Shown here piece after piece: positions 1 to 6,636 of a stretch of 64,000 nt of DNA. The notes beneath the pieces were generated by a model. That model was not told the DNA's origin, ran no database searches, and saw only the letters and a list, made by a program, of their open reading frames with translations. Within the stretch, counting starts at the first letter, position 1. Every line of letters begins with the position of its first letter. Source of the stretch: Thiomargarita sp. (GTDB lineage Bacteria; Pseudomonadota; Gammaproteobacteria; Beggiatoales; Beggiatoaceae). The stretch lies in the NCBI GenBank assembly GCA_020726335.1, contig DYSU01000001.1:26183-90182 (forward strand). The letters are read 5' to 3'. Position numbers and translations under genes: made by a program.

Positions 1-64
1 ATTGTTTGATTGTTTGATTGTTTGATTGTTTGATTGTTTGATTGTTTGATTGTTTGATTGTTTT
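1..64 (-). repeat. 8-bp tandem repeat tract inside the Wzz-like gene
   Basis: On the plus strand the unit ATTGTTTG is repeated seven times perfectly (1-56), followed by an eighth copy with one mismatch at 64. On the coding strand the unit is CAAACAAT. The array starts at the first base of the window, so its true length is unknown. Eight is not a multiple of three, so three units encode eight residues, and gain or loss of one unit would shift the frame. Confidence 0.97.
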
Positions 65-1037
65 CTATCGCTGTATTGTAATGGGAAGTGAGCAAGGAAC
101 GTGATTGAATACCTAAAGCCATGGCAATTTGCAAAGCTTCTTTCAGTTGTTTTATTCTGTCTAAGCGTCGGTCTTTGGCTGTTATTTTTAATGCTTTGAT
201 TTTTTCGGTTATTGAAGCCACTTCTAATTGGTCAGCTTCCGTTAATCTTTGAATTTCAAATTCTCGTGTAATTTTAGCTTTCAATTGCAATGCACTGATT
301 TGTTGTAATAAATCCGCTCTTTTTATCTGGTCTTGCTCCTCTAATTGGGCAATTGTATCCAAACGTTGTTTTTTAGCTTGGGTTTTAAGCCGTACAATTT
401 TCCGCTCCAACGTTTTGATGATCTCTGTTTTTTGGCTGTTGGCTTCAACAATCAGATTATCCAAGGTTTTTTGCAAGGCAAAATCAGCAAACCCATTGAT
501 ATAGCTTGCTAAAAATTCAGGCGGACTGCCTTGCAGCACCACGGCCACTTGTTCTATTTTCTCTTCTGTTTTTTTGTCTTTGCTGAATTTAATCAATTCC
601 ACATCAATGGCTTTATTAATCCCATCGAAAACAGCGGCTTTATTGGCCGTTTCCCGCCCTGAAGTTGTCATGATTTCATCAAGCAAGCCTGATTTTTCAA
701 AAAAAGTTTTGCGGTTGCCTCTCGAACGCAAGTTGCTGATCAATGAATCATAAACCCCTGCAACCGTGAACGCATTGATGTTTTCGCGGTTGAATAAGGC
801 AATATCAGCGGCTAAAGGTGGCAAAAAAACAGCGTTGGCTTCATAGGTGCGCGGCAATAACAGCACCACCAGCACTGCCAACAAGGTGATGATGGTTGTG
901 GTGGCGGCAATGAAATATTTCTTTTTAGCCAGCATCAGCCATAAATCAGCCAAATTGATTTCATCTTCGGCCATGGCATAAGGGGGATAAACGGGATAAG
1001 GGGCAGGAGAATTGTTTTTGTTTTCAGTCGGGCGCAT
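1..1037 (-). CDS. Wzz-like polysaccharide chain-length determinant (3' end outside window)
   Basis: The frame is open from an ATG at 1037 to the left edge, giving 345 visible residues with no stop. The N-terminus carries the Wzz-type DEINLADLWLML box (about 25-36), then a membrane helix (about 41-61), then a long charged, coiled-coil-like periplasmic segment ending in the sequence ALQIAMALGIQ, which is typical of this family. The second C-terminal membrane helix is not reached. Wzz proteins are inner-membrane co-polymerases that set O-antigen or exopolysaccharide chain length. From about residue 326 the protein becomes a repeat (NQTIKQSN) encoded by an 8-bp DNA repeat that reaches the window edge. 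It lies just downstream of glf on the same strand. The family call is confident. Whether the frame stays open beyond the window is unknown. Confidence 0.8.
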   Translation of the reverse strand, partial: MRPTENKNNSPAPYPVYPPYAMAEDEINLADLWLMLAKKKYFIAATTTIITLLAVLVVLLLPRTYEANAVFLPPLAADIALFNRENINAFTVAGVYDSLISNLRSRGNRKTFFEKSGLLDEIMTTSGRETANKAAVFDGINKAIDVELIKFSKDKKTEEKIEQVAVVLQGSPPEFLASYINGFADFALQKTLDNLIVEANSQKTEIIKTLERKIVRLKTQAKKQRLDTIAQLEEQDQIKRADLLQQISALQLKAKITREFEIQRLTEADQLEVASITEKIKALKITAKDRRLDRIKQLKEALQIAMALGIQSRSLLTSHYNTAIENNQTIKQSNNQTIKQSNNQT

Positions 1038-1089: not shown

Positions 1090-2226
1090 TTATTTTGCAC
1101 TGTTTTTTATCGCATTGATTTGTTTGTCAAATAAATGCAATGCCCGCGCAACCGCTTGATCCATATTGTAATATTGATAGTCGCCCAAGCGGCCAGCAAA
1201 CAATACTTTATTCTCTATAAGTTGAGCATCGGCCAGGTATTTTTTATAAAGCTGGCGGTGTTTTTCTTGTGGAATGGGGTAATACGGGTCATTTTTGCCG
1301 CGTTGATAAGCTTGCGGGTATTCTTCAACCCATGTTGTGCCGTGATGGCGTTGCCCCGTCATGTGTTTAAATTCGGTGATGCGGGTATAATCAAAATCGT
1401 TGGGGTAATTGACGGTGGCCACGCTTTGTTTGTTGCCTTGCTGGTGGAAAAATTTGAAATCCAAACTGCGATAAGGCAATGCGCCGTGACGGTAACTGAA
1501 AAACGTATCAATACAACCCGTATAAACCAAGCCTTGGCATTCAATCTCGCGGGCGATGTCGTGATAATCGGTGTTCAACAGCAGGCGAATATTGGGGTGT
1601 GCCAACAGCCGCTGAAACAGCGCGGTGTAGCCGTGTTGGGGCAGACCTTGATAGGGGTCTTGAAAATAGCGGTTGTCGCGGCTGAGGTAAATCGGCACCC
1701 GCCCTGTCACGCCTTTGCCCAGTTCTTCGGGCGTTAAATTCCATTGCTTTTTGGTGTAACGATGAAACACGTTTTCATAGATATAATCAGCTAAAAATTT
1801 TAAATCGCCACTGCTTTGTTCGCGCAATTTTAAAATCGGCGTTTTTTCGCCAAAGCCAAAAGTATCCAACAATTGTTGTTCCAAACTTTTGGCATAGGCG
1901 GCGGGAAAAAGTTGATATAATGTATTGAAATTAAACGGCAATGGCACTTGCTGGCCGTCAATCACTGCCAACACATGGTGGGCATAAGGATGCCACTGGG
2001 TGAATTGGCTGAGATAATCCCAAACGGTTTTCATGTGGGTGTGGAAAATATGCGGTCCATATTGATGCACCAAAACGCCGTGTTCATCGTAATAGTCATG
2101 GGCATTGCCGCCGATGTGGTTGCGTTTATCGACCAGCAACACTTTTTGATTTAATTGACTGGCGATGCGTTCGGCCAACACCGCCCCCGTAAAACCTGCA
2201 CCAACGATTAACCAATCTACTTTCAT
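1090..2226 (-). CDS. glf: UDP-galactopyranose mutase
   Basis: This flavoenzyme converts UDP-galactopyranose to UDP-galactofuranose, the donor for galactofuranose in surface glycans. The N-terminus shows the dinucleotide-binding loop GAGFTGAVLAERIA followed by the GGNAHDYYDEHG flavin motif. Later come the family segments GPHIFHT, KQWNLTPEELG, RVPIYLSRDNRYF and, near the end, FAGRLGDYQYYNMDQ. The length (378 residues) is normal for Glf. ATG codons lie at 2229 and 2226; I prefer 2226 because AGGA sits six bases upstream. It is probably co-transcribed with the small gene upstream and the Wzz-like gene downstream. No lesions were seen. Confidence 0.95.
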   Translation of the reverse strand: MKVDWLIVGAGFTGAVLAERIASQLNQKVLLVDKRNHIGGNAHDYYDEHGVLVHQYGPHIFHTHMKTVWDYLSQFTQWHPYAHHVLAVIDGQQVPLPFNFNTLYQLFPAAYAKSLEQQLLDTFGFGEKTPILKLREQSSGDLKFLADYIYENVFHRYTKKQWNLTPEELGKGVTGRVPIYLSRDNRYFQDPYQGLPQHGYTALFQRLLAHPNIRLLLNTDYHDIAREIECQGLVYTGCIDTFFSYRHGALPYRSLDFKFFHQQGNKQSVATVNYPNDFDYTRITEFKHMTGQRHHGTTWVEEYPQAYQRGKNDPYYPIPQEKHRQLYKKYLADAQLIENKVLFAGRLGDYQYYNMDQAVARALHLFDKQINAIKNSAK

Positions 2227-2236
2227 CATCAATCCT

Positions 2237-5142: not shown

Positions 5143-6636
5143 ATGCCTTTTGAAGAAAATTATCAACGCACATGCCCCGTTGAACCCATTAAACCTGACG
5201 AAAAAGCCCGCCAAACGGCTTATGGTGAAGACTGGGCAAGCGATGGCAAATTAAAATCCACCTTGATTTTCATCAGCTTACCCGCGATTTTTATTGCGGT
5301 CAATATGATGGTGGGCGGTTTGCCCAAGTGGTTTTTTTACAGTTTTTTTGTGGGCTACGCGCTCACCTTGGTGGTCGTCAGTTTGGATGATGTCGAAAAA
5401 CTGCTGGCCGTTTTCATCCTGTATGTGCCGTTGTCGCTGATGTTTCCGTTGTTGTTCGTGCCTAAATTAAACGGCACCAATTTGATGTTGCTCGCTTTGC
5501 TGTTCATGTGGTTTTATCACAACCGCAAAGCGCAAGCCACGGGGTTTGTGCGCTTGCTCAATGTCAATTTGGTGTCGCTGTGGTTGTTGGCCAGCTTTGT
5601 TTCATTGCTGACCAATATCGTGATTGAAGGTGGCACAGGCTATTTTATGGAAATTCTTTTAGAATTCAAAGAATGGCTGGATCAATTCATTATTTTCTTT
5701 GCTTTCATTAACTTAATTCGAGATGGCCCCATGGCGCGGCGGGTCATCGTTTATCTGATGGTCGGCACGATGGGCGTGGCGTTTTTTGGCATGGAAGAAG
5801 CCATAGACCGCGATGGCCGTTCTTCCATGGACGATTCGCGTGTATCAGGGCCACAAGGCCAACCCAATGATTTTGGAGCGTTTATTGTCTACAACGCCGC
5901 TTTGTTCATCGGGGTGTTGAGCGTGTATTTACCCCATGTTTATGTTTGGCCCCTGCTTCCTTATGTATTCATTTGGGTCAAATTGTTGTTGGTCAGCTAT
6001 TCACGCGGCGCGTATTTGGGTTTTGCCGCCATGTTGTCAATCGCAGGTTATGCGCGGGGCAAATTGTTTGTCACCGTCGTTGGGGTTGTAGGCTTGGGTT
6101 TTTTACTGATTTTTCCACAGTTTATCCCGGGTTCCATCACCAGCCGCTTAAATGACACCCAAAAACACAGCGCAGGCACCACCGAAACCAAAGTGGATGC
6201 CAGTTCCCAAACCCGCTTAATTTTATGGAAAGCCGCCAGCCAAATCATCTTAGAACACCCTGTTTTTGGCGTGGGTTTCAAACGTTTTCAACGGGTTAAA
6301 GCTGAGTACACCGAAGCCGACGTACATGAAAGCGACACCCACAACATGTATTTTTGGATTGCCACCCAATTGGGTTTGCCTGCGCTGGGGGTGTTTGCGC
6401 TGATATTCATCCAAACCTATTTTGTGGGGGTGCGCCTTGCCCGCCGCCATCCCGAGCCGTTTGCCCGTGCGATGGGCGTGGCCGCCGCAGGCATGATGGC
6501 AGGCATTGCCGTGGTCAATATTTTTGGTTCGCGCATGACCAGTGTCGCTGTCTATTGTTATGTCTGGATATTTCTCGCCGCGTTTGCCCATCTTCATGCT
6601 GAATTGTTGCGCATTGAAGCCGACAAAGATGGATAA
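5143..6636 (+). CDS. O-antigen ligase/polymerase-like membrane protein
   Basis: A 497-residue polytopic membrane protein of the Wzy_C/O-antigen-ligase superfamily with about ten hydrophobic helices. The large periplasmic loop lies around residues 330-420 and includes ASSQTRLILWKAASQII, the GVGFKRF segment and the conserved histidine motif DTHNMYFWIATQLGLPALG. Such proteins transfer or polymerise lipid-linked glycans, onto lipid A, protein or exopolysaccharide. It is divergent from the octaheme gene, with about 145 bases between them. No strong ribosome site precedes ATG 5143, so the start is less certain than the family. Ligase versus polymerase cannot be told from sequence alone. Confidence 0.82.
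   Translation: MPFEENYQRTCPVEPIKPDEKARQTAYGEDWASDGKLKSTLIFISLPAIFIAVNMMVGGLPKWFFYSFFVGYALTLVVVSLDDVEKLLAVFILYVPLSLMFPLLFVPKLNGTNLMLLALLFMWFYHNRKAQATGFVRLLNVNLVSLWLLASFVSLLTNIVIEGGTGYFMEILLEFKEWLDQFIIFFAFINLIRDGPMARRVIVYLMVGTMGVAFFGMEEAIDRDGRSSMDDSRVSGPQGQPNDFGAFIVYNAALFIGVLSVYLPHVYVWPLLPYVFIWVKLLLVSYSRGAYLGFAAMLSIAGYARGKLFVTVVGVVGLGFLLIFPQFIPGSITSRLNDTQKHSAGTTETKVDASSQTRLILWKAASQIILEHPVFGVGFKRFQRVKAEYTEADVHESDTHNMYFWIATQLGLPALGVFALIFIQTYFVGVRLARRHPEPFARAMGVAAAGMMAGIAVVNIFGSRMTSVAVYCYVWIFLAAFAHLHAELLRIEADKDG

Follow-up and report, generated by a model that had tools for sequence, protein, structure and literature searches.

The window, a 64,000-nt stretch of the Thiomargarita genome, begins inside wzz, a polysaccharide chain-length determinant gene read on the minus strand as an open reading frame of 345 codons (1037..3) that is open at the window edge. 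The features considered here are as follows, with coordinates in the window except where another locus is named.

1..1037, minus strand: N-terminal part of wzz, comprising TM1, the Wzz base domain, the ascending alpha6-type arm and the start of L4
1..63, minus strand: octanucleotide array, AAACAAT(CAAACAAT)7, 63 bp, 7.9 perfect units
64..114, minus strand: start of the L4 loop ahead of the array, QSRSLLTSHYNTAIENN, 17 aa
114..410, minus strand: three ascending-arm modules of 33 aa each, residues 210-308
L007:11511-12083 (contig C13:25510-26082), minus strand: remainder of wzz, outside the window, with the descending arm, KPKR motif, TM2 and stop
1090..2229, minus strand: glf, UDP-galactopyranose mutase (Pfam PF03275, 239 bits), upstream of wzz
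5143..6636, plus strand: Wzy/O-antigen-ligase-like membrane protein (PF04932, 72.5 bits, cut-off 31.7)

The glf start was set by choice at the later ATG, and the Wzy/ligase-like protein is a possible polymerase partner of Wzz. TM1 and the Wzz base domain match Pfam PF02706 with 37.6 bits against a cut-off of 25.5, which bears out the identification of the gene as a chain-length determinant in the earlier note, made from the sequence alone. The C-terminal part matches PF13807 (32.7 bits, cut-off 27.7). Class 2a Wzc proteins carry a tyrosine kinase domain, whereas the Thiomargarita wzz frame ends approximately 10 residues past TM2 and the cytoplasmic kinase domain is absent; the protein is therefore a class 1 co-polymerase. 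A second clear wzz, intact, is present in the same genome on contig C57. Downstream of wzz is a subtilase gene whose first ATG overlaps the end of wzz by 20 bp (L007:11511-11530) and whose second ATG is directly past the wzz stop. Translational coupling of the two genes is possible, and an out-of-frame wzz might also reduce subtilase translation.

The octanucleotide array and the adjoining gap

What is the repeat at the edge of the window, and what lies beyond it? Tandem Repeats Finder (TRF) reports 7.9 copies of ATTGTTTG (CAAACAAT on the coding strand) with 100% matches at positions 1-63; the repeat tract described in the earlier note within a Wzz-like frame is thus real, although it ends at position 63 and not 64. 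Both 63 bp and 7.9 units are minimum values, a 100-N gap adjoining window base 1. These are perfect short tandem units far over chance expectation, inside a coding frame, and of a unit size that is not a multiple of three. Approximately 2e-27 runs of this length and period would be expected per 2.1 Mb, and a chance product is excluded. Elsewhere in the window, period-8 runs reach 16 bp at most. Across the 346 kb of the Thiomargarita genome that was scanned, the longest of the other perfect short-unit arrays measures 26 bp, and apart from 9-bp homopolymers each of these others has a unit size divisible by three; the idea that the genome is rich in tracts of this kind was rejected on that sample. 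The wzz array is the genome's sole (CAAACAAT)n site. It encodes the peptide QTIKQSNN in all frames, so slippage alters only the length of the loop and the frame downstream of it.

Exactly 100 N lie directly to the left of window base 1, and the sequence resumes beyond them on contig C13. The sampled contigs contain four internal gaps, each of exactly 100 N, and tandem repeats border three of them, for which reason the gaps are most likely scaffold gaps of indefinite length where short reads failed. Two more 100-N gaps in this genome (L061:6839-6938 and L067:3083-3182) have tandem repeats on both sides, and other repeat genes of Thiomargarita are thus likewise incompletely assembled. Reading the wzz frame straight across its gap was rejected, the 100 N being a placeholder.

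Past the gap on the same strand, one frame runs for 190 residues and ends with the proline-rich motif and a glycine-containing TM2, IKPKRTLIVAVAFVLGLFLAIFAALVVG, a short tail and a stop, while the remaining two frames close after 8 and 2 codons. The far side of the array agrees with the earlier note: a Wzz C-terminus with the KPKR motif and a membrane helix lies on the same strand, and the frame that reaches it does not end soon after the array. Given where the other two frames stop, slippage by one or two units would probably cut off that second membrane helix, although the gap hides the join; slippage by three would preserve the frame, with eight residues gained or lost. If the visible 63 bp were joined directly to the far contig the two halves would be out of frame. 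In the hypothetical case that the gap contains further units only, the full frame would be regained by 2, 5, 8 and so on extra units.

The L4 cap loop and the helical arms

In an alignment with homologs, the array is flanked by the end of the ascending helix (ALGI) on one side and by PLYLMG, the descending-arm tip motif, on the other. When the family profile was compared with solved Wzz chains, its match to WzzE ended at residue 242, and the L4 loop of WzzE comprises residues 238-256 (PMC10397196). Judged from these two alignments, the array is located in L4, the loop that caps the Wzz bell. A structure model of the window fragment, computed from its single sequence, is weak overall (mean pLDDT 63); it predicts one long helix over the ascending arm (pLDDT 79-95 by block, residues 201-330) and carries this helix on through the array at lower confidence, so that the modelled fragment speaks neither for nor against a loop at this position.

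Among homologs, L4 varies more in length and sequence than any other part of the protein. It is 13-28 aa long in 14 homologs and at least 56 aa in Thiomargarita Wzz, a count of the known residues only, with more in the gap; a comparable array was found in the L4 of none of the 14. One wzz homolog (L095) has a perfect 9-bp tandem array of 31 bp, TGTCCAGGG, in its N-terminal part, where a change in unit number causes no frame shift because 9 bp is a multiple of three. In WzzB, WzzE and FepE, L4 is a flexible loop (PMC7809406, PMC10397196, PMC13161533) for which no DNA repeat is reported, whereas the Thiomargarita loop has at least double the length found in the homologs compared. In characterised Wzz proteins long chains require L4, and in WzzB it contributes a Gln-rich pore (PMC7809406); in FepE an extended L4 raises the ceiling of the cavity (PMC13161533); and mutations in TM2 or the periplasmic domain of WzzE disrupt regulation (PMC13432762).

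The arms of the hairpin that L4 caps are built from repeated modules, of 33 residues in the ascending arm and 32 in the descending arm, and for either arm 0 of 300 shuffles reached the observed self-similarity. Thiomargarita Wzz is a 3+3 protein, with three 33-aa ascending modules and three 32-aa descending modules, the latter outside the window. We compared Thiomargarita Wzz, L010, L046, L093, L098, L105 and nine one-module homologs, and in all 15 proteins the number of modules is the same in both arms: 1+1 in nine, 2+2 in three, 3+3 in two (Thiomargarita Wzz and L105) and 4+4 in one (L098). Ascending/descending arm lengths are 58-59/66-67, 92-93/98, 125/130-134 and 158/162, and their correlation (r = 0.9994) is descriptive only, since the proteins share ancestry and their arm boundaries were placed manually with sequence anchors as guides. 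To judge from these sequences, Wzz proteins of this kind lengthen both arms in lockstep, from 1+1 to 4+4. No description of such lockstep extension was found in the open-access literature. The matched modules might serve as a ruler for the height of the co-polymerase bell, and the range of arm lengths provides a natural series in which to test whether bell size sets chain length, a long-standing question on which work with FepE favours size (PMC13161533).

Proposed slippage in wzz and its alternatives

The array is probably a slippage-prone repeat in L4, the tip loop of a tall Wzz with modular arms, and one that switches or tunes the protein; we hold this reading with modest confidence. Replication slippage would change the number of units. 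Any change other than by a multiple of three units would truncate Wzz at its tip, with loss of the descending arm and TM2, and the truncated protein would represent an OFF state in which chains are short or unregulated. If three units were gained or lost, the cap loop would lengthen or shorten by eight Gln/Asn-rich residues and the protein would stay ON, possibly with a different modal chain length. The earlier note missed the position of the array in the cap loop, owing to which such three-unit steps may matter too. The array could act as an on/off switch plus a loop-length tuner. Taken further, a single repeat would provide two heritable variations, an on/off frameshift and a graded retuning in which the cap loop grows or shrinks by 8 residues at a time, atop a bell with a height determined by the modules; this fuller proposal is unlikely. 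If unit number does vary, one population would contain regulated, unregulated and differently tuned surface chains, and interactions with phage and surfaces would be affected.

Switching is favoured by the perfect 8-bp units, which form the sole non-triplet array in 346 kb apart from the homopolymers, and by the fact that only one downstream frame, of 190 aa, encodes TM2. The position of the array in L4, the unusual length of this loop beside array-free homologs, the part that L4 plays in chain length in WzzB and FepE, and the effects of the WzzE mutations also speak for this reading. Tracts that act as on/off switches are less usually positioned late in a gene than near its start, and the late position of the wzz array argues against switching, as do the occurrence of the same octamer outside genes in other bacteria and the lack of a second such tract in the sampled part of a genome that is not tract-rich. 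One alternative is neutral expansion, in which a chance microsatellite grew in an insertion-tolerant loop and the frame was kept by selection with no switching role. The variability of L4 among homologs and the octamer stretches outside genes in unrelated bacteria fit that account, and the array flank GAAAACAAT, which differs from a unit by one base, is a plausible seed. Where an array is retained for its peptide, the unit length in bp is usually divisible by 3, as in the other arrays of the genome sample, whereas an 8-bp unit makes most length changes damaging; furthermore, long and perfect tracts such as this one usually vary. Neutral expansion is somewhat unlikely.

Could the array instead have broken the gene already, leaving the work to the paralog on contig C57? 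That second wzz is intact, and the frame is off when the visible 63 bp meet the far contig directly, but the gap may hold any length, which weakens the argument from direct joining. Apart from this, both halves of wzz look intact and conserved: their 327 + 190 codons contain no stop and their modules match (3+3). A dead gene is unlikely. The matched modules also argue that the halves on either side of the gap are one gene. An assembly artefact or a wrong scaffold join, bringing together an array and a far half from different genes, is very unlikely, even though the array stops at the gap, the far contig starts without array sequence, and the two other repeat-flanked gaps carry repeat on both sides, unlike the gap in wzz. 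Against such an artefact, the two halves complement each other on one strand and have three modules each, this assembly commonly has gaps at tandem repeats, and the far contig begins with CAAA, which weakly resembles a partial unit.

The earlier note had also suggested that phase variation of polysaccharide length might be undescribed, and this does not hold. In Salmonella, opvAB mediates heritable switching of O-antigen chain length, although by an epigenetic mechanism (Dam methylation and OxyR) that acts through separate small membrane proteins, with no DNA repeat in wzz (PMC3350482). Closer to the slippage reading of Thiomargarita wzz is Amuc_1413 of Akkermansia muciniphila, a Wzz-domain, Wzc-like gene with a slipping G9 tract, in which a frameshift truncates the protein and phase variation has been proposed (PMC13055324). 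Both genes have a slippage tract within a Wzz-domain gene, but Amuc_1413 is a protein of the kinase type (Wzc), and its tract, a homopolymer close to the N-terminus, is always on/off (PMC13055324), while the Thiomargarita tract is an octamer in the L4 of a kinase-free Wzz in which three-unit steps keep the protein. The contingency loci of Haemophilus influenzae contain short tandem units whose slippage shifts the frame or the promoter spacing; those tracts are mostly tetranucleotides, and in the parts of the account consulted the octanucleotide ones lie between or upstream of genes, with none mentioned in wzz (PMC2651432). No report of a repeat tract in L4 was found in the open-access literature, most subscription journals being outside that scope. 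What is new is the location of the array, assigned by homology to the L4 cap loop, and not chain-length phase variation, which is already known.

The octamer in other genomes

The octamer array is absent from 39 relatives and from the other genomes of a 369-genome class sample, and the octamer was rejected as a lineage feature on these grounds. Under the slippage reading, the array would be recent in the Thiomargarita lineage. Among 84,980 species genomes, 32 stretches with at least four units were found, mostly in Bacteroidota MAGs; many are outside genes and a few are inside conserved genes. Since these stretches are intergenic or are associated with many kinds of gene, within or close to them, the octamer as a marker of polysaccharide genes is not supported.

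In Paraferrimonas haliotis (NZ_NRRB01000001.1; L035:3232-4041, minus strand), a perfect 114-bp array, (CAAACAAT)14 (14.2 units), starts immediately behind an ATG and shares its frame with a stretch resembling a signal peptide, while the other two frames end after 17 and 0 codons. With its ATG-array-signal peptide layout, this gene looks like a textbook phase-variable secreted protein, and by analogy only it backs the reading of the Thiomargarita array as a switch. Four loci, mostly from rumen MAGs (L018, L023, L037 and L039), have (CAAACAAT)n arrays of 34-38 bp in frame within long, conserved-looking ORFs that by eye are RnfC-like, amidohydrolase-like, peptidase-like and DXS-like, with the arrays placed as if inserted in surface loops. 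The Bacteroidales MAG RGIG3228 (L032, L033 and L036) contains many octamer arrays, some with drifting unit sequence, and this genome may be rich in octanucleotide tracts.
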